Shown: in pieces, positions 12,730 through 57,722 of the stretch | How positions within the stretch are numbered: position 1 is the stretch's first letter | How the letters are laid out: the number at the start of each line of letters is the position of its first letter | NCBI RefSeq assembly: GCF_037975245.1 | Contig: NC_092565.1 | Span: 21,659,499-21,723,498, forward strand | DNA length: 64,000 bases | Direction: 5' to 3' | Origin: Apostichopus japonicus | Lineage: Eukaryota; Echinodermata; Holothuroidea; Aspidochirotida; Stichopodidae | The notes under the pieces: model-generated | Databases searched by the model: none | What the model was told of the DNA's origin: nothing | Seen by the model: only the letters and a program-made list of their open reading frames with translations | Program-made: the position numbers and the translations under genes

Positions 12730-14570
12730 ATGGCGGGCCATCAGTCTCAAATCATGGGAGATCGACTTATACCGATTTAAATCGACATATACCAGTTTCC
12801 TTCGACATATACCAGTTTCCTTCGACTTATACCGGTTTCATTCTACATATCATCGATTTAAATCGACATATATCAGTTTCATTCTACATATCATCGATTT
12901 AAATCGACATATACCAGTTTCATTCTACATATCATCGATTTATTTTACTTATCATCGATTTAAATCGATGATAAGTAAAATAAATCGATGATATGTCGAA
13001 GTAAACTGGTATATGTCGATTTAAATCGATGATATGTAGAATGAAACTGGTATATGTCGATTTAAATCGACATATCATCGATTTATTCTACATATCATCG
13101 ATTTATTTTACTTATCATCGATTTAAATCGATGATATGTAAAATAAATCGATGATATGTCCATTTAAATCGACATCTACCAGTTTAAATCGATGATATGT
13201 CGAATTAAATCGGTAGAAGTCAATTTCCGTGGACTTATACCAGTTTCTAGCGTCTCAAATTGACATATACCTATTTAAATCGACATATCATCGATTTAGC
13301 TCATTAACATATTCCAAATCCCGATTTCGGTGATGATTGACATGTGGAGATACATCACGTGTAGTCACCTGACAAGGCGGGCGAGTAATTTAATAGTTCC
13401 AAAATTACGAAGCTAGCAAGGGTGTTCATCATGGTTATATGTCAATGGTAATTATGAACAATTACTTGCAAAAAGATTTCGGTGTCACAATAAGGCTGAA
13501 ATAACTGATATGTCAATGACGTGCAATTATCTCAATGCAAACTGGGCTTGTCTACTCGAACACGTGGCGCTATAGTACAGGAATACACATGTAACTGAAT
13601 AGGCCCAAAGTACGTACGCAGATGCAATTACCTACTCCAGTTACACCATAAACAAAGATGATATTGTTCTGCAGTGAGGCCTACTGTAAGGTTACGTTTT
13701 AATGTAGCTAAGTATATACCCATGGGGTTTAACAGTTACAGTATTCAAGCTCAAATCATGCATTCCACTGTGCTCGTGTTTATTTTCAATTATTCGCCCG
13801 CCTTGTCAGGTGACTACACGTGATGTATCTCCACATGTCAATCATCACCGAAATCGGGATTTGGAATATGTTAATGAGCTAAATCGATGATATGTCGATT
13901 TAAATAGGTATATGTCGATTTGAGACGCTAGAAACTGGTATAAGTCCACGGAAATTGACTTCTACCGATTTAATTCGACATATCATTGATTTAAACTGGT
14001 AGATGTCGATTTAAATGGACATATCATCGATTTATTTTACATATCATCGATTTAAATCGATGATAAGTAAAATAAATCGATGATATGTAGAATAAATCGA
14101 TGATATGTCGATTTAAATCGACATATACCAGTTTCATTCTACATATCATCGATTTAAATCGACATATACCAGTTTACTTCGACATATCATCGATTTATTT
14201 TACTTATCATCGATTTAAATCGATGATAAGTAAAATAAATCGATGATATGTAGAATAAATCGATGATATGTCGATTTAAATCGACATATACCAGTTTCAT
14301 TCTACATATCATCGATTTAAATCGACATATACCAGTTTACTTCGACATATCATCGATTTATTTTACTTATCATCGATTTAAATCGATGATAAGTAAAATA
14401 AATCGATGATATGTAGAATGAAACTGGTATATGTCGATTTAAATCGATGATATGTAGAATGAAACTGGTATAAGTCGAAGGAAACTGGTATATGTCGAAG
14501 GAAACTGGTATATGTCGATTTAAATCGGTATAAGTCGATCTCCCATGATTTGAGACTGATGGCCCGCCAT
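12730..14570. mobile_element. Foldback-type element with long palindromic inverted arms
   Basis: The left arm (12730 to about 13390) and right arm (about 13789-14570) are reverse complements. The outer ends read ATGGCGGGCCATCAGTCTC and its complement. The inner ends are near ACCTGACAAGGCGGGCGAGT and its complement. Flanking 8-mers GCGCCGTT (12722-12729) and ACGCCGTT (14571-14578) match at 7 of 8, supporting insertion with an 8-bp duplication. Most of each arm is a tandem of motifs such as CGACATATACCAGTTT, ACATATCATCGATTTA and the self-complementary TCGATTTAAATCGA, so arms differ in length by copy number (about 660 against 780 bp). The roughly 400-bp centre (13391-13788) has no coding frame. 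Foldback elements of this architecture are usually non-autonomous; which transposase moves it is unknown. Confidence 0.85.
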
Positions 14571-24600: not shown

Positions 24601-27600
24601 CTGACTGTTTCTTCTTGTTATCTCTATGTAAAGTTGTCTAATCATGGAAGATAATGTAAAAAATGTAGAAAATTCATACCAGTGCGTTTAATATCACAAA
24701 GGAGTGGGTTGGAACAGAAGGATTTTTTTTTCCCTCTGATCCTGCAGAATTTTATCTATATAATAGTTTCATGGTTTTTGTCTTTATATTTCAGTACAAG
24801 TATTTATGATGTTCACTTTCATAAATATGCTTTGCAAACTTTTAGAAGCTCTCTACTGTACTTTTTAATTTTATATAGTATTATCTGTTTAAGGATAAAA
24901 AGAAATATATAGAGATATCTGTATTGTCAAACAAAAGCATAATTTCGATAAATGGTGGAACTACTATGTTTTAATTTTAATTTTTTTCATATTTTTTCTT
25001 CTCACAAGGATGCTATGAGAGCTGTTACTAAAGTAGCCATACGAGATGCCAGGATGAAGGAACTGAAACAAGAAATCATGAACTCGACCAAACTGAAGAC
25101 TTACTTTGAAGATAATCCCCGAGACATGCAGCTTCTGCGACACGACAAGGTCCTTCATCCCGCCAAAGTACACTCGGAACTGAAAAATGTACCAGAATAC
25201 TTAGGTGAGTATTGTTATAGATTCATGAATACAGATCTGGCAAAATGTCTTTCCATTAAAAAGATAAACACTTAACACTGATTCTGTAAAAATGTCTATA
25301 TTTCTTGCAAATCATCCTCCTCTTTTTCAATCCCACACAAAAAATTAAAAGTAACTTTTATCACACAAAACATTTAAAAAAGTATCTTTATCACAGCCAA
25401 GGATGTAGACCTAAATATTCACCTATTTTATACTCTAAATATGCCTCAGAATTCACCATTTCATATCTAAATTTTTTGTGGTAGTCAATGACTGGAGGGC
25501 CACATTCCCTCCATTTTAATATCCTTGATCTGCCCATGAACTGTAAATAGAAATTCAGCTCTCTGGAAGAAGTTCTGTCAACACTAGCATTATATTTAGT
25601 ACCAAGAATCGGCTTAATAGCAATTCAGCTTTCGTGAACAAAATGGATATGTTAACAAATTTGTTATGTAAGGAATTTTAGCATTTAGATAAAAATCTTA
25701 GAATATAACCAAGGCTAGCTCTGTGAATGAAATATGTCAATATTTGATAAGAAGAGGTGTGTTAAATTAATATGTGACAAGTGGGTTCCATTTCACCTCC
25801 CACCAAATGCATTTTCAAATAGCTAGTAATAAGTGATGTGGAATTGCTTTGCAAAACTGGCAATATGGTTTAGCATATGAGAATATGACAATACATTCTA
25901 ATGCATCCAACTGCTTTTATACAGTTTGCTTTGTTTTAATCCTGCAGTCCCCAGACTCCTCAAAGATGTTAAACCGAGACAAAGCAAGAGCAAGAAAAAG
26001 AAGAGGACTGGAGGAGTTAAATCAAAGACAATACAACGCCAGGTAAGAAATAAACACATAGGTCATCTGGGTACTGGGTTTGACATGGATAGTATACTAA
26101 TCCAGGCCTGGTGGAGTTAAATCAAAGAAAATACAACGCCAGGTAAGAAATAAACATAAAAGTCATTTGGGTACTGGGTTTGACATGGATAGTATACTAA
26201 TCCAGGCCTGGTGGAGTTAAATCAAAGAAAATACAACGCCAGGTAAGAAATAAACACATAGGTCATCTGGGTACTGGGTTTGACATGGATAGTATACTAA
26301 TCCAGGCCTGGTGGAGTTAAATCAAAGAAAATACAACGCCAGGTAAGAAATAAACACATAGGTCATCTGGGTACAGGGTTTGACATGGATAGTAATACTA
26401 ACCCAGGCCTGGTGGAGTTAAATCAAAGACAATACAAACGCCAGGTAAGAAATAAACACATAGGTCATCTGGGTACAGGGTTTGACATGGATAGTAATAC
26501 TAACCCAGGCCTGGTGGAGTTAAATCAAAGACAATACAAACGCCAGGTAAGAAATAAACTTAAAGGTCATCTGGGTACTGGGTTTGACATGGATAGTATA
26601 CTAATCCAGGCCTGGTGGAGTTAAATCAAAGACAATACAGTGCTAGGTAAGACATAAACATAAAGGTCATCTGGGTACAGGGTTTGACATGGATAGTAAA
26701 ACCAACCCAGGCCTGGTGGAGTTAAATCAAAGACAATACAAACGCCAGGTAAGAAATAAACTTAAAGGTCATCTGGGTACTGGGTTTGACATGGATAGTA
26801 TACTAATCCAGGCCTGGTGGAGTTAAATCAAAGACAATACAACGCCAGGTAAGAAATAAACATAAAGGTCATCTGGGTACCGGGTTTGACTGGATAGTAT
26901 ACTAATCCAGGCCTGGTGGAGTTAAATCAAAGACAATACAACACCAGGTAAGAAATAAACATAAAGGTCATCTGGGTACCGGGTTTGACTGGATAGTATA
27001 CTAATCCAGGCCTGGTGGAGTTAAATCAAAGACAATACAATGCCAAGCAAGAAATAAACACAAAGGTCATCTGGGTACTGGGTTTGACATGGATAGTATA
27101 CTAATCCAGGCAGTGGTATAAATTAGAAGAACTTGAAGATGTTCTTATATGTCATCTATCTTGCCCACCCCATTCCCACCATTCTAACACCAACCCCCCC
27201 CCCCTCCCCTTCAACCTACACATATAGGTTTACTGTAATAACCTGATCAAGTTTGTATGTACTACTTTCTTGAACATTCTAACCCTCCACATTATTTGAC
27301 ACATTCAATGTTAGTTCAAATCAGAGAAATTTGCCAGTGAGGAAGAAATTCTCTGACCAATTAAATTAATGCATAAGTTTCACCATAGGTGACCATAGTT
27401 AGACTTTGTAGTGAATCCTGGGACAATACCGATAACATTCAGTCATATCTCCTATTATTGGGTGACAGAGCAAAGAAACTTAGAAGCTTTAAAGAATGTT
27501 GATGGTACTTCATTTATGGTAGCCAGTCCAGGGTTTCATAAAGTAGGGGATGTTGCTGTGGGGTCTTAGAAGCTGACTCCCATATTTTGTTTTTTAAACA

Positions 27601-37667: not shown

Positions 37668-38893
37668 CTTGATGTATGGCTACACAAGACACTCAGGCGT
37701 AGAATATACACTAGGCCTACTTTCGTACTGAACCAAAATTTAATAACAGAATCTTGATCTAGGAAAATTACGTAATAGTATTGAAATGTGATCGTATGCC
37801 TTCGTTTGTCGCCGAATGATTCATTATAGCGATAATTTTTAGCATCAATCATAATGCATAGTATTATTTAAATAAAAAATTGTGTTTAAAAATATTTTTT
37901 ATTGAAACTTGAAGTACAAACTATTTCTTTGAGCAAGATGTGTTTACTACTGGCAGCAAATTTCTAAGTTTGAAGTACAACTAAGTCCGTGTCTGTAGTA
38001 CACGTTACTCAAAACAGATCAGCACAACTAACCAACTTGTACATTTGACTGTAACGGAACTTACGTGAGAAACGTATGTATTTGTTACTGTACAACTGTG
38101 AGCCTTTACAATACTACAGTACCATGTCAAGGAAAACATTTTATGCAGTTGTCAGCAAATAGTGTCCTGATGCAGCTCAGACGTCGTTAACAAGTAGAGG
38201 AGGAAAAAATACTAATTAAGTCGAGGAGAAAATTTCAAAGGATATTTAAAAGGTGTCCGATTTCTCTCTGATCGCGGAGTTGTCGTTTGTGGCAAGTTTT
38301 CTGTAGGCCACACACCTAATGACCGAAGATTCGAAACTTGATGTGAAATGATATCAGCATATGGCCCGGTAAAGTTGCAATTGCTTGTTAGAATGTTTGT
38401 TATCTGCCATTAGTATTCGTACTTTAAGCCAAAATATATTTCAATCACGAAAAAGAATTTCCTTGTTCCGATCGAAAAAAAGTTATGACCAAACGTGAGG
38501 CTGGCTTGACGTTAGCCTAGGCTTTAGACATAAATGTGCAGACTGTATAGAGTATCCTATGCAGATATGTACAGTAGAGTTTCGAGTGGTTATCATCATC
38601 CAGTCATTGCAGCTCAGGACTCCCTAACCCCTCCTGTCTGAACCAAACTTTAATTTTAGCTCATTTGTTGCATTAAATTAGATCAAAGCAGTAAGAAATA
38701 TTAAAGTCAGGCCAAACTTTCTTAGTGGAGGAACAGCCATCAGAATGTGACTGAGTGGTGGCCATCTGTCTTCAGTGAATGGGTATGCGGTACCTGGAAG
38801 TACAATGCTGCATCTCTGGTTATAACTAGTTATAATATTTATTTAAATAATTTTTGACATGCCTTATTTGATTCTTTTCACAGCAGTTTTCGA
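37668..38893. promoter_or_regulatory. Shared 5' region between BNIP1 and the ENTPD gene
   Basis: The two start codons diverge across about 1.2 kb. An acceptor-like TTTGATTCTTTTCACAG at 38867-38883 precedes the ENTPD start codon by about 10 bases. So a noncoding first ENTPD exon probably lies somewhere in 37.7-38.8 kb, and the true promoter-to-promoter distance is shorter still. No TATA box or CpG-island-like stretch is evident. A bidirectional promoter is an inference from geometry only. Confidence 0.45.
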
Positions 38894-41800
38894 ATGACTT
38901 TTCCAACTGTTTGGCAGATTAGTGTACGCAAGCCTAGCAGGCAAAGACGTATTGCTGTTCTCTTGATTGTTGTAAGCCTGTTTCTCATTTTTACATATCT
39001 GGCCCATGAAACGCTATCACAGCACCATGAAAAGGATGCTGTCTTTAGGGAATATGCCAGAAAATATGAACACATTGAGGTGACAAATACTGACGATGAC
39101 AACCTTTATTATGGCATCGTCATTGATATGGGATCAAGTGGATCTAGGGTATTTGTCTATTTCTGGCCTCAGCATACAGGTAAATCTAATGAACTCCTGC
39201 ATATTCAGCAGATGAGGGATCAAGAGCGGAATCCTGTCGTCAAGAAAATCAAACCAGGTATAAATAATCTATAATTTGATTTTAAATTATAATAAAGGTA
39301 AAAATGCACATATTTTTCTAAGACCGAGGAAAGAAAAAACTATTTTGAAAAGACAAATGGGAAGACTGTAGACAAAATGCATTTCAATTAGTGCGAGACA
39401 AATTTTAGTTGGTGTTATTAGAATTTTAATCAGTTTTAGTCATAAAGGGAATTTAAGAGACTTGTCATATTTTCATACTGAGTACCTGTACAGGAATAGC
39501 TACATCAACACAACTAGTACTCAAACCTTTTTTCTTTATTGAACTGTTTGATGCCAGGATTAAAATTCTGCACTAAAGCATCCAGTAATTGTCGACAAGA
39601 GAACTGTCAATCACTTAAGAGTGTTTTCAGGCTCTAGAAGTAGGTGAACAGTTATGAAACTAAGGATAAAGATAACGTCCATTACACTAACATTATCAGC
39701 ATGACAGAAGTCTATTTGGTTGATAATTGCTTCCCTCATTTAGCCTTTTTACTCTTTTTCCCTACCTTTCATTGGGAAAAAAATTATTCATTGAATAAGC
39801 AGAAATAAAACAGAAAAAAAAGAATGAAGAAAAATAAGTTTTCTTTGTAAAATCTGGCAGTATGACAAGAAATTATATCAGAAAGTCAAGACATTAACAT
39901 ATGTGAAGGTTATTTGGCTTCAGGCATGCCTGTAATGATTTAGAGACTTCACGTTAAAATGACACAATTGTATATTATCGTACTTGCTCCTCTCTCCACA
40001 GGGATTTCCAGCCTGGCTGACTTCCCAGAGAAGGTAGATGGATATGTAAAGAATCTGCTAGACTATGCAGCTAAACACATTCCAGCATCAAAGCACCATG
40101 AAACACCACTTTACATTTTAGCAACAGCTGGCATGAGAATGCTTCCACAAAGGTGAATTACGTTGCTCACTTTATAACTTTCTCTTTCGTGGTGGAAGAC
40201 TTAAAATGGTGTACTCTTGTATTAAGGAGTGGCAGCCGCTTGGGTCCGAGACTTGGAAAAGTTTGACTCTTGGAAACCTAATACAGGAAGGAAATTCTGA
40301 CCTCCTCCAAGAAAAACAAAGCACAATTTCTTGTGAAATCCCTTCCCTGCTGCTTTTTGGATTATATTGATCAAACTTTAGGTGTGATCCCTGGTTTACA
40401 CTGTATGCAAGGTCATGTGACACCCAGAGCAAGGTAATGGCTATACAGGGATTACTACCAACTAAACCAGGATAAGTCAGTTGGTAGAGCCCAGGGCTGG
40501 ATAAGGCAGTTGGTAGAGCCCAGGGCTGGATAAGTCAGTTGGTAGAGCCCAGGACTGGATAAGTCAGTTGGTAGAGCCCAGGACTGGATAAGTCAGTTGG
40601 TAGAGTGCAGGGCTGGATAAGGCAGTTGGTAGAGCCCAGGGCTGGAAAAGTCCCAGGGCTTGATAAGTCAGTTGGTAGAGCGCAGGGCCGGTTAAGTCAA
40701 TGGGTGGAGTGAAGGGGTGGATAAGTCAGTTGTAAGAGCACAGGGCTGGATAAGTCAGTTGGTAGAGCACAGGGCTGGATAGTCAGTTGGTAGAGCACAG
40801 GGCTGGATAAGTCAGTTGGTAGAGCACAGGGCTGGATAAGTCAGTTGGTAGAGTGCAGGGCTGGATAAGTCAATGGGTGGAGTGAAGGGGTGGATAAGTC
40901 AGTTATAAGAGCACAGGGCTGGATAGGTCAGTTGGTAGAGCACAGGGGTGGATAAGTCAATGGGTGGAGTGAAGGGGTGGATAAGTCAGTTATAAGAGCA
41001 CAGGGCTGGATAGGTCAGTTGGTAGAGCACAGGGCTGGATAAGTCAATGGGTGGAGTGAAGGGGTGGATAAGTCAGTTATAAGAGCACAGGGCTGGATAG
41101 GTCAGTTGGTAGAGCACAGGGCTGGATAAGTCAATGGGTGGAGTGAAGGGGTGGATAAGTCAGTTATAAGAGCACAGGGCTGGATAGGTCAGTTGGTAGA
41201 GCACAGGGCTGGATAAGTCAATGGGTGGAGTGAAGGGGTGGATAAGTCAGTTGTAAGAGCACAGGGCTGGATAGTCAGTTGGTAGAGCACAGGGCTGGAT
41301 AAGTCAGTTGGTAGAGCACAGGGCTGGATAAGTCAGTTGGTAGAGGGCAGGGCTGGATAAGTCAGTCGGTAGAGCACAGGATGTATAACCCTTAGGTCAC
41401 TGAACATTTTGAATCCTGTTCTAACCAAATCCTTCTTTGCTCTTTTTCCACTTTATTTGTAACCTCACAGTCAGTTATCGTTGGTCATTTACTAATATAA
41501 TAATTTTTCTGTCTCTCTTCTTCAGCAGACTTTTAACATCACTTTGAAAATTTTCTTGTTTCTTCATTTTATAGTAAGCAAGATAATTTACTTAGCAGAT
41601 TAAGGGAAGGTGTGCCTCAACATTACAACTTCCTGTTCTCTGACAGTAGTGTGGAAATTATCAGTGGCAAACAGGAGGGTGTCTATGCCTGGATTGGAAT
41701 TAATTACGTTCTGGGCAGATTTAATCATGATGAATCTGGTATGAATTTTGGATTTCACTTTCCTCTTGCTTCTCGATGATTAATCGAGATCGTCCCCTTT

Positions 41801-44800
41801 TTTGGAACGAAATATATTGTCTGCAAGCAAACTTAGTTGTTGTGATATTCTAAGGTTTCTGTGGTGTTAAAAAATATCAATGTTTTTAAGATAAAGCAAA
41901 CTAACAAGAGTACACATCTAGTATAGACATCACTATATGTGGCATTTTTCAACAAACAAACATTGATGGATGCACATTAGCTCCACAAGCTTGATGGGGA
42001 AAGACTGCTTTGAAGTGGGCTTACATATTTTTTTGTAACAAGTAGTAGCACTCACTAACGATATTGCAGGTATTTCACAATATGAAGAGAGAGTTATCTC
42101 CTCCCCATAGACCTCCCCAGGATGAGGTATCCCACTTTTGAAAGGAATAAATATGGCAACCCAATCCTTTTCTCATATCCTATTCCTACTATGGAAAATT
42201 AATTGTGAGCTACATCTACTCCCCTGCCCCCCCTCCCCCCCCCATTATTATGTAGGAGTAGAAAGTCAATATTTAATAATATTACATTTCTTTCCTTTGT
42301 TTTGTTCATTTATTTATTAGATCCTTACAAAGTAGCCATAGATATTCCCGGGGATGGAAGGCTGGTCAGGAAACGTACTGTCGGTGTGTTGGATATGGGA
42401 GGAGGCTCAGCTCAGATTGCCTTTGAAGTTCCTCAGAAGATTGAATTTACTAACAAGGTGATGATTGCCATCTTTGGCTGCGTAATGTTCTATGTGATGT
42501 CTTTGTTCTGAGTGGTAAATGGTTGTTTGCCTAAAGTACATAGCACATAACTTATAATGATCCAAAACCACATTGTCAGGAAGCGGTTGCAACTCTGCCT
42601 CTAGCTTAAAATTTCTCTTTTAAATTTACAGTATTTTTCATGTTGTTCATTCCTTATCAATATATAATTGATCACATTTGTCTTTAATCAAAACATTGCA
42701 AGAAATAGCCAGTCCTAGGAACAATGTTTCTTGTACAGTATGTTTTAGGACCAACTTGGGTTTTCATATTGTGAAGGATGTGTTTGCCATTTGTCTCCTG
42801 GATGCGTAGGAACTTCTGGCCAAAGGTCACATTGCCGAATTCAACCTGGGTTGCCACCAACACGAGTCTGATCACGTCTACAGAGTCTATGTTACAACAT
42901 TCCTCGGCTATGGCGGCAATGCAGCCCGTCATCGATACGAGAAGTTACTCTTCAACGGGACGAGAGGTACAGAGGACAGGTAAACTACCGTATCTCGTAG
43001 ACGTCGGGAGTGGAATTACTATATCTTTAAGTTAAGGACATGTGTTATCAATATCTAACAAGTGGGTCTAAGGGATATCTAACATATTGAATCTTCGAAT
43101 TGATGGTAGACTTTACTCCTCATCGTCTTGATCTAAATGTTGAGTTGATTATAGAGATTTTTGGCTAAGCCCATCCATTACTTTTGTATCTAATGTGTCA
43201 TTTGTTTGAGGATTGTTATAGGATGAGAAAGCTTTAAGAATTCCTTAAGGAATGGTTAGTGGTAATGAAAAGATCTCTGAATCACATGACTTGAACTTGA
43301 AAAGGAATTTCCAACTCTCAAGAGATTATCGAGAGGGGATTATGTTTGGAGAGATTGAAGCTTCTCGCTCTCTCTGAGATTGTTGTTTCTCCATCTCAAA
43401 GAACCAGGTGCAGAAAGATCAAGGGGTAGATGAGGGTAAAACCCCCTCCCCCCATTCAACCCCATAATTGTTTTTGTTAACTAGTCATCAGTATAACCTT
43501 GCATGTGGACCTAATTTATTGCCTAAAAATGCCTCAGAATATCACCATCTTCACCTCTAAATTTTCACCTTTTTTTTCTCTCCTACCAAAGAGTTGCAGT
43601 TAACAAGGGGGATTTATTTTCCTGTTCAAGATATGTTTCACACTATCACAGCCACTTATTATACCTCTTTATCATATTCAGTTTTGGCGACAGTATTGAT
43701 GACACATAACTATCTATTTTAAGGCAATACCATTGTCAATTGACGTTATACTTGTTCATGTCCCTCGTAGTTAATTAGGTCCATCCTACCACAATAAGGA
43801 CAAAATTCTGAAGAAAGTTTGATGTATTTTTTTCCTCTTTAGTGACAGCCCTCTGGATAGGAGAGGAACATCATCAGCAAATCCGCTCTTGGATCCATGC
43901 TTACCAAAGAGTCTGGAAGACACCATTTCTTTTGACAAGAAAGATATTTTCCTGAAAGGTTCAGGGGATTACGATAAATGTCAGGACAGACTGAAACCTC
44001 TCTTGAACTTGACAGTGCCATGTGAGAAAGAACCCTGTTCATTTAATGGTATCTTCCAGCCTAGCGTTAGGTTCAACAATAGTGAGTTCTATGGCTTTTC
44101 GGAGTACTGGTACTGCATGGAAGACGTGCTGAGGATAGGTGGCGTCTATGAATATGACCAGTTTCGAAAAGCTGCAAAGGTGAGCTCTTAAAATTGCTCC
44201 CCCCCAACACCCCCACCCCAAAAAAAACAACCTCTAATGCAATTTAGGACTTCCTTTATTTAGTTGAATGTTTTTCACATTTACTTTTGTTTTCAGAGTG
44301 TCAGTGTACCCTAAGTGATCAACGTTTTTATTTCAAATGGTTCTGAAAAATTATTAGAAATTTAACATCGTTCAATCTATACTTTATGGTAAGCAGTGAT
44401 CTTTTTTTGTTATAATCTAATTTCGAATAAGCTGGTCTGCTACAGATACGTATGGAAATGTTATCAATTTTAATCTGATTCTTTAAACACTTGGCAGATG
44501 CATTAGATTCATCTTGGACAAAACAGCTGTGTGTACTATGTAAAAGTTTCACCCAAATCAATACCAGATGTTTTTAATAATGTTGCTCATTGCATTGATT
44601 AACCAAAATGCATTTATTGTCCAGAGTACTTTACAATATTCATAGGTCAATAGAGAATGAAAAGTTAGAAACCTTGTAAAACATGGTATCTTTAAGTAGG
44701 ACAAACTTGAACAGATTCACCCAAATATATATCTGATGTACTACTTTCTGTACAGCGATGATTTACTCAAATTGTATTTGGTGTCCCAAGATGAGTAGAA

Positions 44801-47800
44801 GGAATGTTTGTCTGTGTAGGTCAAAGGTCATTGAAGGATATTAACTGACAAAATTGAAAACCCTATGAAAAGTGCAATTTATCAAGAAAATGTCAACCTC
44901 AGATCAGGTAATTTTCTACGAGGGCCAGAAAGAAACCTTGGTTATTTAACAATTTAGGTCAAGGTGAACCAAAATCTCACTGTACCTTAGCTGAGGAAGG
45001 TGCATGATATAGCAGTAATGTGCTCAAGTGTATCATCTTAAGAGTAAGGTTGTTGGCAGCTTTTCTTGGTGAGGGGGAGGGAGGGGGCCAGATTGAGATC
45101 CTTCAATTCCCAGATTTGTCCAGCAGGCCACATTTTGTGAAGCTCTGACCTAGTTGGATCCAAAATTTCTATCAGTCTGATGTTTCAAATCTAAAGCATT
45201 TAGGAAGTACTAGTTTAGTGCATGAGCTGTCTTGCTTTCAGTATCAAATAAGTATCAAATATCAAATCATCAAATATCAAAATAATTATCAAATATCAAA
45301 AATCAGTATCAAATAAAAAATTCAGTGCTTTTAGTATCAAATATTATGATCAAATAGACAAGCATTTAACGTTAGTTTAATAAACTGCTACAATTGAGTA
45401 ACTGTAAAATGGTATTATATGGGTTAATGTACTTACTGGGTATAAAATAAATAGATGTTACATCAAACCAGATTCCATTGGAAGAGTATATTTGACCTAT
45501 AAGGGCAACATGTCCATTAAAGCAAGATATGTGGCCACTGTTTTAGGGTATCATTTTGAGGAAAGCATTTCCAAAGGTTAAAACAATATAACAAAATTCA
45601 AAACATTAATTACATTGATAAATATGCCTGTACATTTAAAAACAGTTTAAGTGGAACATAAATTTTAAGTATGTAAAGTGTCATATACTGTAGTCAAGTG
45701 GGGTAAAAAAAAAACAATTTACCTAAAGTTTGCTCTAAAAATTGATGAGTAAGAGGTATTGTTTCGGTTCCAATGTTCAAGTGTGTGGAGTGGGATTCTT
45801 TTAGAGAAAATCTAATAAAAATAACTTTTTTGTAAATGGAAAGTGTCGTTTTTTGCGAAAAGTGTTGTTTTTTTTTACCCCCAAAATTTGCTTAATTCGG
45901 GGTATAAAAAACAATGCCGGGGTAAAAAAAAACAATGCTATAAAACAGCTATTTTCTTCATGAATGTATCTTAAAATCATGTTTGCATATAATTACATCT
46001 AAGTATGAGCTTCTACCTTTACATGAAAAAGGAAAAAAATTGTGAAATTGTCTTAATTCGTAATTATGGATGGCTCGTGTCATATGTCATGCTCAGCCAT
46101 ATTCATACTGTACAGTGTGTATATGATGCTACACAAATGTGGTGTCATATAGTAGAAACATTACAGTTGAGCCAATTTCAGTTACTTTTGCCCAATTATT
46201 TAACATTTTTGACACATGACAGACATGAAAACTATTTGCCTAACCTCTAAAATCAACATTATGGAAAAATGTATCCATTCAGGCAAAATAGGGAGTACAT
46301 TGGAGCCGGAAAGTACTTGTTTTTTTTTTACCCCATTCGCATCATTTTTTGGGGGTAAAAAAAAACAAGGGCCCCACATGCAGCGTGAATGAAGTTGGAG
46401 TAATTCTACCATGGGGGAGTGTAATATCACTAACTGCTATGCTGTAACTGCTGGAATAATCTCCACATCATATAAGCTGGGTATGTAGGAGAAAGTTTCG
46501 GATATGTGGTACAAACTTCAAATTTCGCTATTTTAGCATTCGCTTGATTCGAAGCGGTGATTGGCAGCGAAGTGACATAGAGTTCCAGAAATTATATAAT
46601 AATAAACTAGACATATAGGACTATCACCCAAAATAAATTGGAACTTTAGCTAAATATTCCCCTTCTATAAAAAGGGGTTGTTTTTTTTTAACCCAACTAC
46701 CCCCTTGTTTTTTTTTACCCCAACTGACTATATTTATGTGAAAGAACCTGATAAAGTACTAAAGCACTATATTTGTGGAATCATTGATGGATTTGTTGAT
46801 AGGACATGAAATATGGCTACCATGTATCGATCAAGAAAATCTCGAAACTAACTTGTTTTCAAGTCAATATTGACACATTTCTCGATGCGGGTCGAGAGTG
46901 AAATCACATTTATTCCCATCAAAATGTAGGTCGTTGGCCTAGTTAAAACATCAATCAATCAAGTTTCAGTTTAGATAGTGAAGAGAAAATCTCTACTTAG
47001 GAGTGAGGTTTCACTTTGCTGTTAAATGTGTCTACTACTATTTTTCTAACTATTCATTAACCTTCATTTGGTTACGAAATGTGGGAAGGTGTCTTTGTGT
47101 GATCAATGATGCATAACAATGTAATGATGTTATGATGCTGTGTTATAATGTCATAATGCTGTGTAACACTGTTATGATGCTGTGTAATAATGTTACGATG
47201 ATGTGTGATAATGTTACGATGCTGTGTGATAATGTTACGATGCTGTGTAATAATGTTACGATGATGTGTAATAATGTTACGATGCTGTAATAATGTTACG
47301 ATGCTGTGTAATAATGTTATGATGATGTGTGATAATGTTACGATGCTGTAATAATGTTACGATGATGTGTAATAATGTTACGATGCTGTAATAATGTTAC
47401 GATGCTGTGTAATAATGTTATGATGATGTGTGATAATGTTACGATGCTGTAATAATGTTACGATGCTGTGTGATAATGTTACGATGATGTGTGATAATGT
47501 TACGATACTGTGTGATAATGTTACGATGCTGTGTGATAATGTTACGATGATGTGTGATAATGTAACGATGCTGTGTGATAATGTTACGATGCTGTGTAAT
47601 AATGTTATGATGATGTGTAATAATGTTACGATGCTGTGTAATAATGTTATGATGATGTGTAATAATGTTACGATGATGTGTGATAATGTTACAATGCTGT
47701 GTGATAACGTGATGATGCTGTGTAGTAATGTGATAATGCTGTGTAATAATGTTATGATGCATGTTATAATGTTATGATGATGTGTAATAATGTTATAATG

Positions 47801-50800
47801 CTTTGTAAACTTGTTTTGATGCTGTGTAATAATGTTATGATGCTGTGTAATAATGTTATGATGATATGTAATAATGTTTTGATGCTGTGTAATAATGTTA
47901 TGATAATGTGTGATAAAGTTACAATGCTGTGTGATAATGTGATGATGCTGTGTAATATTGTTATGATGCTGTGTAATTATGTTATGATGCTTTGTAATAA
48001 TGTGATGATGTTGTGTAGTAATGTTATGATGCTGTGTGATAATGTTACGATGCTGTGTGATAATGTTACGATGCTGTGTAATATTGTTATAATGCTGTGT
48101 AATAATGTGATGATGCTGTGTAATATATGGTGCTGTGTAATAATGTCATGATGCTGTGTAATATTGTTATGATGCTGTGTAATAATGTCATGATGCTGTG
48201 TAATAATGTCATGATGCTGTGTAATAATGTTATGATGCTGTGTAATAATGTCATGATGCTGTGTAATAATGTGATGATGCTGTGTAATAATGTTACGATG
48301 CTGTGTTATAATGTTACAATGCTTAATAATGTTATAATGCTGTGTAATAATGTCATGATGCTGTGTAATAATGTGATGATGCTGTGTAATATTGTTATGA
48401 TGCTGTGTAATAATGTCATGATGCTGTGTAATAATGTCATGATGCTGTGTAATAATGTCATGATGCTGTGTAATAATGTTACGATGCTGTGTTATAATGT
48501 TACAATGCTGTGTAATAATGTTATAATGCTGTGTAATAATGTCATGATGCTGTGTAATAATGTGATGATGCTGTGTAATATTGTTATGATGCTGTGAAAT
48601 AATGTCATGATGCTGTGTAATAATGTCATGATGCTGTGTAATAATGTTATGATGCTGTGTAATAATGTCATGATGCTGTGTGATAATGTTATGATGCTGT
48701 GTAATAATGTTACGATGCTGTGTAATAATGTTGTGATGCTGTGTAATAATGTGATGATGCTGTGTAATAATGTTATGATGCTGTGTGATAATGTTATGAT
48801 GCTGTGTCATGATGCTGTGTAATAATGTTATGATGCTGTGTAATAATGTTACGATGCTGTGTAATAATGTTATGATGCTGTGTAATAATGTCATGATGCT
48901 GTGTAATAATGTTATGATGCTGTGCAATAATGTTATGATGCTGTGTAATATTGTTATGATGCTGTGTAAATAATGTTATGATGCTGTGTAATATTTGAAG
49001 GTTATTTTCATATCTGACCAACCTCAAGCAGCTGCCTCAATGCATACAAACATTAATTACTCACAAGAAATATAACAACCTTAAATAATTCACCATGTCT
49101 CAAATGATCAGAACCGCAATGTATTCCTGTATCCGGGCTCCTTTTGTGCACAGTATCTGGCATACTACCTGGAACCGTTTCGTTTTGATCTCTTGCAGAG
49201 CCATTGTTAAATTATCAATTTATAAAAAGTCAACCCTGCAGAGAGCAAAGAAATTTCAGGCTAGAATTGTGATTCAAACCAGTGACCTTATCAGCCCAGA
49301 GCCTGTTAGTCAAAATCCCTATGAGTAACACAAAATGTTGCAAAACCTGATGATAAAATGTAAAGATTTAGTGTGCCACTGTAGATCAAAGTTTATGATA
49401 AGGACGATTATGAAATTGAGAACTTTGAATTATATTTTCTTGTCTTTCAGAATTACTGTGCAACAAGATGGTCTTTGCTAAAGGAACATTATGAGAAAGG
49501 ACTTTACTCAAAAGCAGATGAGTTTAGGATCAAGTGAGTATCATAAATCTCTACTTGTCTCTTGTTCTCTTTCGTTTCTCTGTCGTCCCTTTTAGAAACC
49601 TCTCCCTTTGTTTTTCTCCCCCTTCCTCCCCCTCCCCCAAGTCTAGCCTCCCCATTTATGTTTACATTGACTCATGTCTGATTCACCCTTCGTTCTTGCA
49701 TTCCTTATCAAGGTAGCTGTCCCTATTATTTTGCTTGTTTGGGTTAATAGTTGATACAGAGACTGTGCCAGTGTGGCCCTGATAACAGCCCTCCCCCCGA
49801 CCCGCTCTTGAGCCCAGTTGAGTTATTTAGTTTACCGCTATAATAACACAAGCAGTTTCTTACAGAGACTGTGTCAGGGTGCCCCTGATAATAGCCTTGC
49901 TCAGCTCAAGAACAAGCAAAAGCAACACTAATTGTTTTTAGAGGGAAGGATTATTATACTTGTATCATAGGTTGAAATCCTGTTGTAGCCAATTATTTTG
50001 TTTTGCTCTTTGATAGAGACTTTATCTCTCAGTTAGTTGTCTGTTTGACTTCATAATTAGCTTTGGAAATTTAAATTCCAAAATCCCTCCCAAATGGGAT
50101 GCCTCACAAATGCTCCTTTCACTTTGCCTTCCAGAGTTGGCAAGAATTAACTGTTATATTCAATGCATTTCCTACAGTTAATACTGCCAATTCCCCCCTC
50201 CCCCCTCCTGAGCCCAATAGAATGATTTAGTTTATCGCTATAGTAACACTAAGCAGCTTCTTACCAGATTGAGAACAGTGATATTCTTCAGCTTAAGAGA
50301 AGTAACTATGGAATTAAATTATTGATGGAGTTCTTTCTTTTTCTGAGTAAGACCACCATCAGAATAATAAGAGGTGGTTGAAAAGTCAAGCTACAGTAGT
50401 AAATTATTGATGGATTTCTTTTGTTTTTGAGTATTAAAACTGTCAGAATAATAAGAGGTGGTTTAAAAAGTCAAGCTACAGTAGTAAATTGTCTTTCTCA
50501 TCTAATTATTAATATTTTGATAATTTCACTACAGGTATAAATAATTTCACTGCATTGAGTTTTACTGTATACTTGTTTAAATTTACAAGTTAACACAAAC
50601 ACTAAGCTCAATTCTAAACTCTCGCAGTCCCTCTTGCATGTCAAGCCCTAACCGATAGATGTTTGAGCCATCTACTTGTGTAGAGTTTTACGTTCAAGTA
50701 TTTAAACCGATTTTTCAGACTATGAAGTTATGATGTTTTTCCACATATTATTTTCCTTTATTTCCTATGTACTTCATCTTTTAACACAAACACTTGCAGA

Positions 50801-53800
50801 GGGAAATGTTGTGAAGATCTCAACCCCGAAGAAATGTAATGAATGAGATCTGTCAACAAAGTATATAAACTTTGTATCATTTATATGCAGTTATTGCAGT
50901 ATTAAAGTTTTCTTCCAACTATCCATATTCTACATTTGCAAATATCCCTACAGTAGATTGTGAAGGAGTTTGTTCCAGGAATTGCATCATCCTACCTGTG
51001 CAATTAAGTGTTCCAAACTGTGATAAGACGGTGAAGTTTCTTATTGCCTGATAATGATTCAAAAGCTAGTTAACATTTTTTCCCCCATCTCCACCAATAG
51101 ATTTCAGTGTTTTAAGTCAGCATGGATTACTACAGTTCTTCACGAAGGCTTTAAGTTTCCAAGAGGTTACAAATATCTCCGTACAGCCAGTCTCATACAT
51201 GACAAGGAGGTACAGTGGACGTTAGGTGCAATATTACACAGGACAAGGTTTCTACCACTTAGGTAAGTGAAACACTAGTATTACACAGGACAAGGTTTCT
51301 ACCACTTAGGTAAGTGAAACACTAGTATTACACAGGACAAGGTTTCTACCACTTAGGTAAGTGAAACACCAGCATTGCACAGGATAAGGTTTATAACACT
51401 TAGGTAAGTGAAACACTTGTATTACACAGGACAAGGTTTCTACCACTTAGGTAAGTGAAACACTAGTATTACACAGGACAAGGTTTCTACCACTTAGGTA
51501 AGTGAAACACTAGTATTACACAGGACAAGGTTTCTACCACTTAGGTAAGTGAAACACTAGTATTACACAGGACAAGGTTTCTACCACTTAGGTAAGTGAA
51601 ACACCAGCATTGCACAGGATAAGGTTTCTACCACTTAGGTAAGTGAAACACTTGTATTGCACAGGACAAGGTTTCTACCACTTAGGTAAGTGAAACACTA
51701 GTATTGCACAGGACAAGGTTTCTACCACTTAGGTAAGTGAAACACTAGTATTGCACAGGACAAGGTTTCTACCACTTAGGTAAGTGAAACACTAGTATTA
51801 CACAGGACAAGGTTTCTACCACTTAGGTAAGTGAAACACCAGCATTGCACAGGATAAGGTTTATAACACTTAGGTAAGTGAAACACTTGTATTACACAGG
51901 ACAAGGTTTCTACCACTTAGGTAAGTGAAACACTAGTATTACACAGGACAAGGTTTCTACCACTTAGGTAAGTGAAACACTAGTATTACACAGGACAAGG
52001 TTTCTACCACTTAGGTAAGTGAAACACCAGTATTACACAGGACAAGGTTTCTACCACTTAGGTAAGTGAAACACCAGCATTGCACAGGACAAGGTTTATA
52101 ACACTTAGGTAAGTGAAACACTTGTATTACACAGGACAAGGTTTATAACACTTAGGTAAGTGAAACACTAGTATTACACAGGACAAGATTTATAACACTT
52201 AGGTAAGTGAAACACTAGTATTACACATGACAAGGTTTATAACACTTAGGTAAGTGAAACACCAGCATTGCACAGGACAAGGTTTATAACACTTAGGTAA
52301 GTGAAACACTTGTATTACACAGGACAAGGTTTATAACACTTAGGTAAGTGAAACACTAGTATTACACAGGACAAGGTTTCTACCACTTAGGTAAGTGAAA
52401 CACTAGTATTACACAGGACAAGGTTTCTACCACTTGGGTAAGTGAAACACTAGTATTACACAGGACAAGGTTTCTACCACTTAGGTAAGTGAAAACACTA
52501 GTATTACACGGGACAAGGTTTCTGCCACTTGGGTAAGTGAAACACTAGTATTACACAGGACAAGGTTTCTACCACTTAGGTAAGTGAAACACCAGCATTG
52601 CACAGGATAAGGTTTATAACACTTAGGTAAGTGAAACACTTGTATTACACAGGACAAGGTTTCTACCACTTAGGTAAGTGAAACACTAGTATTACACAGG
52701 ACAAGGTTTCTACCACTTAGGTAAGTGAAACACTAGTATTACACAGGACAAGGTTTCTACCACTTAGGTAAGTGAAACACTAGTATTACACAGGACAAGG
52801 TTTCTACCACTTAGGTAAGTGAAACACCAGCATTGCACAGGATAAGGTTTCTACCACTTAGGTAAGTGAAACACCAGCATTGCACAGGATAAGGTTTATA
52901 ACACTTAGGTAAGTGAAACACTTGTATTACACAGGACAAGGTTTCTACCACTTAGGTAAGTGAAACACTAGTATTACACAGGACAAGGTTTCTACCACTT
53001 AGGTAAGTGAAACACTAGTATTACACAGGACAAGGTTTCTACCACTTAGGTAAGTGAAACACTAGTATTACACAGGACAAGGTTTCTACCACTTAGGTAA
53101 GTGAAACACCAGCATTGCACAGGATAAGGTTTCTACCACTTAGGTAAGTGAAACACTTGTATTGCACAGGACAAGGTTTCTACCACTTAGGTAAGTGAAA
53201 CACTAGTATTGCACAGGACAAGGTTTCTACCACTTAGGTAAGTGAAACACTAGTATTGCACAGGACAAGGTTTCTACCACTTAGGTAAGTGAAACACTAG
53301 TATTACACAGGACAAGGTTTCTACCACTTAGGTAAGTGAAACACCAGCATTGCACAGGATAAGGTTTATAACACTTAGGTAAGTGAAACACTTGTATTAC
53401 ACAGGACAAGGTTTCTACCACTTAGGTAAGTGAAACACTAGTATTACACAGGACAAGGTTTCTACCACTTAGGTAAGTGAAACACTAGTATTACACAGGA
53501 CAAGGTTTCTACCACTTAGGTAAGTGAAACACCAGTATTACACAGGACAAGGTTTCTACCACTTAGGTAAGTGAAACACCAGCATTGCACAGGACAAGGT
53601 TTATAACACTTAGGTAAGTGAAACACTTGTATTACACAGGACAAGGTTTATAACACTTAGGTAAGTGAAACACTAGTATTACACAGGACAAGGTTTATAA
53701 CACTTAGGTAAGTGAAACACTAGTATTACACATGACAAGGTTTATAACACTTAGGTAAGTGAAACACCAGCATTGCACAGGACAAGGTTTATAACACTTA

Positions 53801-56037
53801 GGTAAGTGAAACACTTGTATTACACAGGACAAGGTTTATACCACTTAGGTAAGTGAAACACTAGTATTACACAGGACAAGGTTTCTACCACTTAGGTAAG
53901 TGAAACACTAGTATTACACAGGACAAGGTTTCTACCACTTGGGTAAGTGAAACACTAGTATTACACAGGACAAGGTTTCTGCCACTTAGGTAAGTGAAAA
54001 CACTAGTATTACACAGGACAAGGTTTATAACACTTAGGTAAGTGAAACACTAGTATTACACAGGACAAGGTTTCTACCACTTAGGTAAGTGAAACACTAG
54101 TATTACACAGGACAAGGTTTCTACCACTTGGGTAAGTGAAACACTAGTATTACACAGGACAAGGTTTCTACCACTTAGGTAAGTGAAAACACTAGTATTA
54201 CACGGGACAAGGTTTCTGCCACTTGGGTAAGTGAAACACTAGTATTACACAGGACAAGGTTTCTACCACTTAGGTAAGTGAAACACCAGCATTGCACAGG
54301 ATAAGGTTTATAACACTTAGGTAAGTGAAACACTTGTATTACACAGGACAAGGTTTCTACCACTTAGGTAAGTGAAACACTAGTATTACACAGGACAAGG
54401 TTTCTACCACTTAGGTAAGTGAAACACTAGTATTACACAGGACAAGGTTTCTACCACTTAGGTAAGTGAAACACTAGTATTACACAGGACAAGGTTTCTA
54501 CCACTTAGGTAAGTGAAACACCAGCATTGCACAGGATAAGGTTTCTACCACTTAGGTAAGTGAAACACCAGCATTGCACAGGATAAGGTTTATAACACTT
54601 AGGTAAGTGAAACACTTGTATTACACAGGACAAGGTTTATAACACTTAGGTAAGTGAAACACTAGTATTACACAGGACAAGGTTTATAACACTTAGGTAA
54701 GTGAAACACTAGTATTACACATGACAAGGTTTATAACACTTAGGTAAGTGAAACACCAGCATTGCACAGGACAAGGTTTATAACACTTAGGTAAGTGAAA
54801 CACTTGTATTACACAGGACAAGGTTTATACCACTTAGGTAAGTGAAAACACTAGTATTACACAGGACAAGGTTTCTGCCACTTAGGTAAGTGAAACACTA
54901 GTATTACACAGGACAAGGTTTCTGCCACTTAGGTAAGTGAAACACTAGTATTACACAGGACAAGGTTTCTGCCACTGAGGTAAGTGAAACACTAGTATTA
55001 CACAGGACAAGGTTTCTACCACTTAGGTAAGTGAAACACTAGTATTACACAGGACAAGGTTTCTACCACTTAGGTAAGTGAAACACCAGCATTGCACAGG
55101 ATAAGGTTTATAACACTTAGGTAAGTGAAACACTTGTATTACACAGGACAAGGTTTCTACCACTTAGGTAAGTGAAACACTAGTATTACACAGGACAAGG
55201 TTTCTACCACTTAGGTAAGTGAAACACTAGTATTACACAGGACAAGGTTTCTACCACTTAGGTAAGTGAAACACTTGTATTACACAGGACAAGGTTTCTG
55301 CCACTTAGGTAAGTGAAAACACTAGTATTACACAGGACAAGGTTTCTACCACTTAGGTAAGTGAAACACTAGTATTACACATGACAAGGTTTCTACCACT
55401 TGGGTTAGTGATACACCAGTGTTACACAGAACTATGTTTACACGGTCACAGTTACAGGTACAAGACTTCAGTTGTTTATAAGTAGAGACTAGGATTTTAT
55501 TCATAGGTTAGAGTATGAGCAGGTTAAAGGTTAAAGGTTATTATAGTACAGCAACACTGGCTTGATTGTAAGTATGTTTACATACTAACTTCAAGTCTGA
55601 TGTGAAACCCTCACCACTACACTTGAATGGTCATGGAATTAACTCCTTTCTTCTTAATACTTGCTACTATATTTGTGAATACTATATCATCTCATTTATG
55701 CTGCTGTACATCGTATGACCAAAATTTGAATCACTTCTTTTTCTGACTTTTATATCCTTTTATTTTTAATCATTCCAGAGAGATTCAACAGAGTTCCTTG
55801 CAGCAGAATAAACCCCCTTGGGTAAAGTCACCGAACCCCTGGCTCTCCAACCAGTACCTGCTCCTCCTCTGCTTCATAATCGTGGGCATCTTCATCTTTG
55901 TGTACATAAGATGGTTAAGAAGCATGAGTCCTCAGAGAGGTACCCTCGCCAGAGTACCAACAATGGCCTACTTCATGACGGAAGAAGGACAAGTGCAGGA
56001 CGGTGTCTATGAAACCAAGGGACTCCTCCCCAGCTAA
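38894..56037 (+). CDS. ENTPD4: Ectonucleoside triphosphate diphosphohydrolase, ENTPD4/ENTPD7 type
   Basis: Nine coding exons: 38894-39257, 40002-40152, 41575-41738, 42321-42457, 42810-42979, 43843-44179, 49451-49533, 51101-51262, 55779-56037. They join in phase to 608 aa (human ENTPD4 about 616, ENTPD7 about 604). An N-terminal membrane segment spans about residues 20-37. Apyrase conserved regions: DMGSSGSR (78-85), LATAGMRM (161-168), SGKQEGVYAW with the catalytic Glu at 206, DMGGGSAQ (251-258), and FYGFSEYWYC in exon 6. A second membrane segment is at about 549-566. Two anchors with the catalytic domain in the lumen is the intracellular (Golgi/lysosome) plan, where the family hydrolyses UDP and other nucleotides. 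ENTPD4 and ENTPD7 cannot be separated by eye; the symbol is provisional. Exon 5 uses the CAG/GTAAAC donor at 42980, not the upstream GT at 42967, because only it keeps the frame. Introns 2, 6 and 8 hold large arrays. Confidence 0.94.
40469..41380 (+). repeat. 29-bp minisatellite resembling a tRNA A-box region
   Basis: About 31 copies of a unit containing GGATAAGTCAGTTGGTAGAG and CACAGGGCT. The segment TCAGTTGGTAGAGC matches the D-arm of many tRNAs (A box TRGYNNARNNGG), though two consensus positions differ (AG for GC before TCAG). A variant unit (GATAAGTCAATGGGTGGAGT) alternates in blocks, giving a higher-order pattern. It lies in ENTPD intron 2. No B box is present, so a tRNA gene is excluded. 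Confidence 0.85.
45236..45360 (+). repeat. ATCAAAT-rich simple repeat
   Basis: Irregular tandem of AGTATCAAATATCAAA-type words in ENTPD intron 6. Confidence 0.7.
45693..46728. mobile_element. Tc1/mariner-like non-autonomous element with A-tract ends
   Basis: The ends read GTCAAGTGGGGTAAAAAAAA and, on the opposite strand, GTCAGTTGGGGTAAAAAAAA, each flanked by TA (45691-45692 and 46729-46730). That is the target duplication expected of Tc1/mariner-type insertion. The GGGGTA-plus-A-tract motif occurs repeatedly inside, on both strands (about 45872, 45900, 45920, 46325, 46354, 46690). No transposase frame is visible; 46005-46250 is open but featureless. It lies in ENTPD intron 6. Confidence 0.65.
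47108..48992. repeat. 21-bp minisatellite, about 89 units, open on both strands
   Basis: The unit is close to ATGATGCTGTGTAATAATGTT. Because 21 is a multiple of 3, frames stay open for long stretches in both directions (up to 316 codons on minus at 47977-48927, with an ITQHHNI heptapeptide, and MLCNNVM on plus). These are not credible genes: the unit drifts at DNA level, indels shift frame, and the array lies inside ENTPD intron 6. The left part (before about 47700) is richer in GTTACGATG, the right part in GTCATGATG, so two expansion phases are likely. Confidence 0.95.
49090..49330 (-). repeat. SINE-like repeat in ENTPD intron 6
   Basis: On the minus strand a tRNA-like portion is suggested by TAACAGGCTCTGGGCTGAT followed by GGTCACTGGTTTGAATC (B-box-like). 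It resembles the layout of the 34150-34378 repeat, with the tRNA-like part at the high-coordinate end. Boundaries are uncertain. Confidence 0.4.
49745..50490 (+). repeat. Local duplications in ENTPD intron 7
   Basis: CAGAGACTGTG(C/T)CAG-GCCCCTGATAA blocks recur near 49757 and 49863. A GAGCCCA-TTTAGTTTA-CGCTAT block recurs near 49811 and 50211. A unit of about 79 bp ending GTCAAGCTACAGTAGTAAAT is tandem at about 50320-50490. Old, diverged intronic duplications. Confidence 0.65.
51231..55425 (+). repeat. 47-bp tandem array copying the ENTPD exon 8 end and its 5' splice site
   Basis: The unit is the last 32 nt of coding exon 8 (ATATTACACAGG to CTACCACTTAG) plus the first 15 nt of the intron (GTAAGTGAAACACTA). 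It is repeated about 89 times by length over 4.2 kb, immediately downstream of the real donor (GT at 51263). Nearly every copy keeps TTAG/GTAAGTG. A few read TTGG/GTAAGTG or TGAG/GTAAGTG, and only the last copy (about 55400) has GGTTAGTG. Variants (CAGCATTGCACAGGATAAGG; TTGTATTACACAGG; TTTATAACACTTAG) recur in blocks: 52481-52669 reappears at 54175-54363, 1694 bp away, so large segments have been copied too. From exon 8, read-through gives TAA immediately after the junction codon (51264-51266). Confidence 0.97.
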
Positions 56038-57722
56038 AAGGATTGACCAGTAGATGACCCATCACATTTAATCACTGCAGCAACTATAGAGATATAGACA
56101 ATAGGGGTCAGAATTTCTCTCTCCAATCTTTTGGTAATTCATCTTAAAGGAATTTAAACGACATGATTTCTCTCTTCATCACGTAGGCTTAAAACGGAAT
56201 CTCTTTTTTTACTTTGTAGGGGTTCATATCAGAACAGATGTTTAAGGTCTTGTAACAGCCTAGTGCTTTTCAAAACAAACATCGTTTTACACGAAGACTG
56301 TCACACTTTCATAGCAGAGCTACCTAGCCTATTCTACTTTGCATATCGGAATCAGGGCTTAAGTCATTATTGTCATTCAATGCTGAGACTAAACAGAGAC
56401 CTGCTGTTTGCAAACTTTATAAGGAAAAAGAAAGCTGTGTTGAATTTTGAGTTGAGTGTTGAGAGGATAATTCAAGTAACTGTAGTGGATTACCCAAGTA
56501 ATTTGAGTGGATTACTCGAGTAACTTAAGTGGATTACTCAAGTAACTTGGGTGGATTACTCAAATAACTTGAGTGGATCCGATCAAAACCTATAGTGTGG
56601 TATTAATGAAACACAAACAGCCACTTCAAACGTTGTGAAATCTCGATACTTTAACCATGCCACAAGTAACCTTACCTTCACCTTGTATTTGTATATGACT
56701 TTGAAACATTGGATTTTCTGTGCTTGATGTATTATGTAACATGAGTTAAATCTGTAAACATGTTGGAAACAATAGCTAAAACTGTTTGTGTTTGTGTGTG
56801 TGTGGTTTTTATTTTTTACTGAAACAGATTTGCTTTTTCCAATTTTTTTATTAACTTTTGTAATTAGTAATACCATGATGATCATACCAAGTGATATATC
56901 TTTTAATTACAATTTGATGTTTTATGTAAATCAAATATTAAAGGAAGCCTCAGGTTATTGGGAGAAATTCCTTCCATACCCTCTCCACTTCATCCCTTGT
57001 ATTATGACCAACCCTCTCCCCTCCCCCTCCACCCCCCTCCAATATACATATTGGATATTAAATTGTTGCTTCCCCCATTCTCACACTCACAAACTCCCCT
57101 TAATGGCCTAGTTACCCCCAATGCAATATGCAGAAATAATTCGGCATAAAAAAAAGAGTTACCTCTCAGTATCTTGTAGATCCCGTAGAATTTACTTTAT
57201 CTTTACCAAGTCGAACTTACATTAGTCCGGTATAAGCCAACACCTGTTTTTTTATTTTTTATGTAAACTTCTTATCAACAGAGTAATTTTTTGAGAGAGG
57301 GAAGTGTCAAGAACAAGACCCTTTCGGCTGCTGTGGATACATTGCCATCTGTCCAAACCTGTCTTGTATGTTTTTAAAGAAGTGACTTTTAAATGTCAAA
57401 CATTCTGAATCACAACTAGTTTGTGTCATTTAGCATACCATATTTACTGATAATCTTGTTTTTGAACATGGCAAACATCACGTGGAAGCTGTCATATTTG
57501 ATCTGGTTCCACGAAATGTGTTTTGATCAACATGAAGTACATTGGATCATGACTATTGAAGGAGAGATACTGTGAAAGAATTGTCAGAATCTCCAAGTCA
57601 AAGCAAACTGTGTTATAAGAACCTTAGCTTATGTCTTCTCAAACTCGTTTCTTCTGTTGCTCACAGAAACTGAAGGAGTAGAACTTTGAGCCAATCATGC
57701 AGCTGGATTGAATGCATGTGAG
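56038..57722 (+). other. ENTPD 3' UTR and flank
   Basis: Presumed 3' UTR. An ATTAAA at about 56937 is a possible polyadenylation signal; others lie further on (AATAAA near 59066), so the transcript end is not fixed. A 22-bp palindromic array lies at 56471-56578. C-rich tracts occur at 57010-57040. No coding exon is recognised. Confidence 0.5.
56471..56578. repeat. 22-bp tandem of palindromic CAAGTAACTTG-type units
   Basis: About five units of GTGGATTACTCAAGTAACTT. Each holds the near-perfect palindrome ACTCAAGTAACTTGAGT, so single strands could fold into serial hairpins. It sits in the likely ENTPD 3' UTR. Confidence 0.85.

Follow-up and report, generated by a model that had tools for sequence, protein, structure and literature searches.

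How does a gene come to carry a 5' splice site in 89 tandem units inside one of its own introns, and which donor would it then use? The question is raised by a 64,000-nt stretch of the Apostichopus japonicus genome (the window; C5:21659499-21723498), in which the end of a coding exon and the adjoining start of its intron are multiplied within that intron. A 20-mer taken from the cyclin A 3'UTR primer of A. japonicus (PMC6721757) is present once in this genome, consistent with the species. The earlier note on this DNA had described an approximately 89-fold amplification of the end of exon 8 and its donor in intron 8, and this description holds. TRF reports 89.2 copies (94 % matches, score 7217), and splitting the array gave 89 units over 4.2 kb, 84 of them 47 nt and five 48 nt long. 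Two details needed correction. Each unit is made up of 31 nt of the end of exon 8 and 16 nt of the start of intron 8, not of 32 and 15 nt; the 32 + 15 phase was rejected, as the base immediately upstream of 51232 is not the one with which the unit ends. The array also begins at 51232, and position 51101, originally given as its start, is the start of exon 8.

The 89 units fall into 20 sequence types, the commonest of which accounts for 25/89 and includes the first unit. Nearly all copies retain the donor, as had been proposed: GGTAAGTG is kept in 88 of the 89 units. The donor reads TTAGGTAAGTGAA in 82 units, TTGGGTAAGTGAA in five, TGAGGTAAGTGAA in one and TTGGGTTAGTGAT in the last, which is the only unit to have lost the donor core. 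The array contains long exact repeats, the largest of 849 bp at a distance of 32 units and two others of 633 and 343 bp, and these show that multi-unit duplications have occurred recently. When the genome (671,581,487 bases in 35 contigs) was searched with a 225-base query comprising exon 8 and two units, all 39 matches fell here, hence the array is confined to a single locus. Like other minisatellites, it consists of head-to-tail units in the 10–100 bp range that are homogenised and found at one locus. The unit length of 47 nt is not a multiple of three, and each frame of the array contains 116–120 stops.

The gene that contains the array was examined using Pfam, PDB and the open frames (Table 1). 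PF01150 (GDA1_CD39) matches in five places of the window. The best match of the peptide encoded by exons 8 and 9 is human ENTPD4 (PDB 6wg5, E 3.9e-23), the next being ENTPD1 (E 0.058), and the join, ...RTRFLPLR/EIQQ, aligns to human ENTPD4 ...RTRFLPLRDIQQ. When exons 2–9 are joined via the first donor of the series, they form one frame with 0 stops and AG/GT borders, and the exon 8/9 border preserves phase within the host gene. Exon 9 encodes a C-terminal membrane helix. The 5' end listed for exon 1 is the start of the open frame and its real start is not fixed; similarly, the end listed for exon 9 bounds only the stretch used for joining, and its true 3' end is not fixed. On domain content and closest match, the host is of the ENTPD4 type, i.e. 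a predicted ENTPD4/7-type nucleoside diphosphatase gene. Because the joined frame is open, homology to ENTPD4 runs across the join and PF01150 covers exon 8, the unit derives from exon 8, and copy 1 is the predicted real donor. The proposal that the true donor is the first in the series is therefore upheld at the sequence level. Exon 8 is homologous to the unit, and the earlier note's reading thus passes the check on homology that it had set itself.

Table 1. Coordinates in the window of the ENTPD4-type gene, its intronic array and the second donor array
Feature	Position	Strand	Basis or detail
Founding exon of second array, ends ACGCCAG/GTAAGAAAT	25949..26042	+	Sequence
Second exon-end donor array, ~100-bp unit, 11 copies	26004..27111	+	TRF; sequence
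Exon 1, first coding	38858..39257	+	ORF 38858-39274; PF01150 match 39089-39268
Exon 1 donor	39257/39258	+	Context AAACCAG/GTATAAAT
Exons 2-4	40002-40152, 41575-41738, 42321-42457	+	Joined open frame
Exons 5-7	42810-42979, 43843-44179, 49451-49533	+	Joined open frame
Exon 8, 162 nt	51101..51262	+	PF01150; human ENTPD4 6wg5; joined open frame
Tandem array, 47-bp period, 89 units	51232..55429	+	TRF and unit split
Predicted true 5' splice site TTAG/GTAAGTG, exon end 51262, first in series	51259..51269	+	Phase, homology, U1 duplex
Intron 8, 4516 nt, array for most part	51263..55778	+	
In-frame TAA directly after predicted true donor (CTT AGG TAA)	51264..51266	+	Reading frame
Exon 9 start (AG/A GAG ATT CAA CAG...)	55779..55950	+	6wg5 homology; joined frame

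Two further arrays in this gene contain no donor, one with a 29-bp unit in intron 2 (40470-41380) and one with a 21-bp unit and approximately 80 copies in intron 6 (47120-48993), both found by TRF. By eye, the 29-bp unit resembles a tRNA A-box; ARAGORN and Rfam searches of this array returned nothing. Rfam and tRNA searches over the ENTPD4-type gene as a whole offered no explanation either, the one weak match, to mir-3613, lying far under the cut-off.

The array donor is strong, as the earlier note had also held. U1 genes of this genome begin AUACUUACCUG, and the duplex of U1 with the array donor has a calculated energy of -11.5 kcal/mol compared to -14.0 for a perfect site, while the donors of exons 1–6 (n=6) range from -4.2 to -9.6 kcal/mol. 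The idea that the locus is a natural experiment in donor choice stands, as the full exon precedes only the first copy. The rationale that had been offered for that choice survives in part. Exon definition is a natural answer and would probably favour the sole copy that is preceded by a whole exon, but closeness to the acceptor is not in itself a reason to expect the first donor to be used. Classic experiments that set two strong, identical donors against each other found a preference for the intron-proximal one, hence the choice made in this gene is a real question.

The array is not an isolated oddity. The window includes a second donor array at the end of an exon, with units of approximately 39 nt of exon end and approximately 61 nt of intron start. 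GGTAAGA is kept in 10 of its 11 copies, and the last copy lacks the GT. Pfam finds a DEAD domain in the exons upstream of the founding exon, which was judged by eye to be part of a DEAD-box helicase gene, presumably DDX56; a PDB search with the tail of the founding exon joined to one from upstream yielded nothing beyond a chance match. Elsewhere in the window, at 12761-14538, palindromic ATCGATTTAAATCGAT-like repeats form two clusters, in which the periods are 20, 41, 61 and 163 bp.

The genome was then searched for three donor motifs recurring at regular spacing, and the 5' edges were fetched for 22 distinct loci from among the matches listed, mainly on contigs C1–C4. Fifteen of the 22 arrays begin, by eye, where a coding exon ends (L001, L002, L006, L007, L008, L010, L022, L023, L025, L026, L028, L029, L030, L031 and L033), with L022 and L023 representing one duplicated locus. 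Homology backs ten of the 15, via Pfam in nine and a PDB match in L008, which is serine palmitoyltransferase 1 (SPTLC1). The Pfam families are YJU2, ceramide glucosyltransferase (UGCG), tyrosine phosphatase, amino acid transporter (twice), aldo-keto reductase, HMG-CoA synthase (HMGCS), PIG-U and talin, the talin match being borderline (E 0.0095), and PDB matches also support the YJU2 and UGCG arrays. L026 had been taken by eye for a TBC domain and has no Pfam match. Across 16 arrays, the unit includes 2–47 nt of exon and 2–132 nt of intron and, because these parts differ among arrays, the exon-end arrays represent separate births. Approximately 33 Mb, made up of C1 and the initial 11 Mb of C2, contained ten loci, of which six were judged by eye to lie at exon ends; a rough estimate scaled from these suggests that exon-end donor arrays with this motif and spacing number on the order of a hundred genome-wide. 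Among the papers listed by open-access literature searches for minisatellites, or tandem repeats in general, located at splice donors, no report of exon-end donor arrays appeared.

Some of these arrays have features of their own. The talin array (L033, C4:27302300-27303700) has a 33-bp period and an open frame in which VRIQQLNESAK is repeated, and it could be translated into protein as read-through. The first unit of the PIG-U array (L031, C3:27933600-27935000) holds a 14-bp sub-array, GTAAGAGATTACTA, that creates extra donor-like sites. Two arrays on C1 that lie 0.5 Mb apart belong to one unit family; one (L028) is at the aldo-keto reductase exon end and the other (L027) has no evident exon.

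Hit counts alone say little, because the excess of overlapping hits over those obtained with the reversed motifs is modest (976 versus 789, 957 versus 727 and 532 versus 401) and the motif is rarer genome-wide than its reverse (44102 versus 59166). Judged by the reversed-motif control, arrays that lack a donor motif are roughly as frequent as arrays with one. We therefore used the exon-end test, in which Pfam (E <= 0.01) was run on the open peptides that terminate at the first donor. Matches were obtained for 9/22 array starts and 13/120 random motif copies (one-sided Fisher p = 0.0014), a comparison in which eight of the 22 arrays are of AGGTAAGA and the baseline was built from AGGTRAGT copies only. 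The baseline combined 60 AGGTRAGT sites from the first 2 Mb of C1 (Pfam match in seven; 57 peptides scanned after dropping three duplicates) and 60 spread over C1–C9 (Pfam match in six), the latter selected for a TGCA lying 20 nt downstream and with repeated families thinned to one member; in both sets, peptides of <20 aa were left out of the scan. Counting the duplicated pair once gave p = 0.0038, and AGGTRAGT arrays alone gave 5/14 (p = 0.023). In the strictest subset, AGGTRAGT arrays with the pair counted once, the figures were 4/13 and p = 0.064. Hence, array founders are enriched approximately three- to four-fold in real exon ends.

Arrays of the acceptor motif TTTNCAGR gave 1276 hits versus 1171 in the control. 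The 3' edges were fetched for 11 of the approximately 30 loci listed, and by eye one of the 11, L021 (C1:17108300-17110600), lies at an exon start; it is of the NDUFB2 type, with a Pfam NADH_B2 match. A nearly identical unit is found at C1:21418416-21418509. Another of the acceptor-motif picks (L020, C1:5679600-5681900) looks, by eye, like an AG/GTAAGG donor array at a coding exon end when the other strand is read.

Taken together, we consider it probable that the intron 8 array is a neutral minisatellite that was founded on the end of exon 8 and is tolerated since the extra copies are intronic. The founding event would have been a tandem duplication that placed a copy of the 31 exonic and 16 intronic nucleotides within the intron. 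The array would then have expanded to 89 units through slippage, unequal exchange or segmental duplication within it, the latest steps being large ones, among them the one behind the 849-bp repeat. The coding copy would be held by selection at the protein level and the copies downstream of it would be free to vary. We infer that the array is neutral and that the first donor is the one used; it would then be tolerated because the frame exits through that donor and leaves all further copies in the intron. A possible helper is removal of the intervening copies as small AG/GT-bounded introns. The same process appears to have struck many other coding exon ends, each yielding its own unit, and the best reading of the whole is of a minisatellite-prone genome in which exon-end arrays are tolerated.

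The excess of exon ends raises the question of whether active 5' splice sites are themselves preferred birthplaces of minisatellites in this lineage, with a factor linked to transcription across strong donors (DNA that is U1-bound or in an R-loop, or nicking near AG/GT, for example) seeding the duplication and the AG/GT copies being neutralised at once, either by choice of the first donor or by stepwise removal. Array birth may indeed not be blind to splice sites. A birth process that favours genes in general could alone be sufficient for the excess, which therefore does not by itself imply a link between birth and splicing. We regard splice-site seeding as a tentative suggestion of rather low probability. 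If it were true, introns would grow mainly from their 5' ends and many genes would be left with arrays of spare donors.

Less probable, and in our view unlikely, is that the array is tolerated by stepwise removal, with each TTCTACCACTTAG/GTAAGTG serving as both acceptor and donor, so that the intron is spliced out in steps of 47 nt or a multiple, the donor is regenerated at each step and the mature message is unchanged. TTAG/GT is present in 82/89 units and AGGTAAGTG (AG/GTAAGTG) is kept in 83/89, and these create repeating one-unit GT..AG pieces. However, each piece would be very short for an animal intron. The sequence ahead of AG/GT is TTTCTACCACTTAG in 52/89 units, but in 23/89 it is TTTATAACACTTAG, which makes for a weaker acceptor side. 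There is a precedent in human UBC, where an array of AGGT sites is used both ways and yields a ladder of isoforms (PMC10809524); the same source reports that dual-specific sites are under-represented at annotated sites and score lower than one-way AGGT sites.

Use of the decoys could also be regulated, some transcripts taking a decoy donor or stopping within the intron and giving either an ENTPD4 that ends ...FLPLR and lacks the membrane helix or nonsense-mediated decay. Owing to the TAA directly after the predicted true donor, one retained extra unit, or retention of the intron, is predicted to end the protein at ...FLPLR, past the PF01150 domain and ahead of the hydrophobic helix of exon 9, and all 88 decoys would produce this identical truncated protein. 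A premature stop that lies far enough upstream of a junction, 50–55 nt, usually leads to decay of the message, and by this rule all of the decoys but the first would also invite decay. However, the stop belongs to the first codon of the intron and not to the array, and we consider regulated use of the decoys improbable.

A function as a platform for U1, whether in telescripting, in speeding up splicing via U1 recruitment or in sequestering U1, is very improbable. The array offers 88 copies with a duplex of -11 kcal/mol or better in 4.2 kb, and no GT-centred site outside it reaches that value within 38801-56300. Against this, intron 8 contains neither AATAAA nor ATTAAA, the two hexamers scanned, so the telescripting that the earlier note had envisaged, in which U1 sites guard the polyadenylation signals of their own intron, would have neither of these signals to suppress. 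Units and genes differ at each recurrence, with no evident common gene function. Three of the nine donor positions vary among units compared to 12 of the other 38 (p = 0.70), and by this measure there is no sign of special conservation of the donor bases. Deviations from the consensus are fewer in donor cells (8/801 versus 153/3382 elsewhere), which could hint at constraint, though one inseparable from the descent that the units share. Sequestration by one locus also seems unlikely given that there are at least 42 U1 genes, 41 of which are clustered at C20:29019462-29087219. Many of the spacings in this cluster are near 856 bp.

Finally, exact repeats as long as 849 bp could lead an assembler to inflate or collapse the array, but artefact is the least probable reading, as the order of the 20 unit types includes several different internal duplications, similarly built arrays recur at many loci and published A. 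japonicus HiFi reads, presuming that they underlie the same assembly, average 14.7 kb at 64x and exceed the array in length (PMC10344927).

Donor choice among identical sites has so far been studied with built constructs, and this genome offers many natural ones, which differ in copy number, spacing and length of the exon part of the unit and for which the correct products are known by homology. The arrays also represent a concrete route by which introns may lengthen from their 5' ends. They place exon ends inside fast-changing repeats, where the coding copy could be changed through exchange with other parts of the array.

Several known systems resemble the intron 8 array in part. The known recursive splice sites, or ratchet points, of long introns are single and well spaced and have strong pyrimidine tracts. 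They share with the array an acceptor-like stretch directly before AG/GTAAGT, but here there are 89 units at 47-nt spacing and the tract is modest. Intronic minisatellites and VNTRs are alike in period, homogeneity of the units, higher-order blocks, a decayed last copy and confinement to a single locus; the ENTPD4-type founder differs in that it holds the end of a coding exon together with a complete 5' splice site, and founders of this kind recur across the genome. Intron gain by tandem duplication, as described in PMC2891723, likewise involves duplication of exon sequence carrying AG/GT, whereas the duplication in the ENTPD4-type gene probably spans an existing exon/intron border, so that an old intron would have grown and none been created. 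A further comparison is human UBC, in which Duan et al. (2024, PMC10809524) describe a tandem array of dual-specific AGGT splice sites and link tandem repeats with splice sites. In both genes, AG/GT is found in each tandem unit, and the UBC repeat is tolerated since splicing is able to drop it. The UBC units, as described there, are 228 nt long, coding and in frame, and are variably kept in the protein, whereas those of the ENTPD4-type array measure 47 nt, contain stops, are intronic and out of frame, and probably extend the pre-existing donor of a pre-existing intron.
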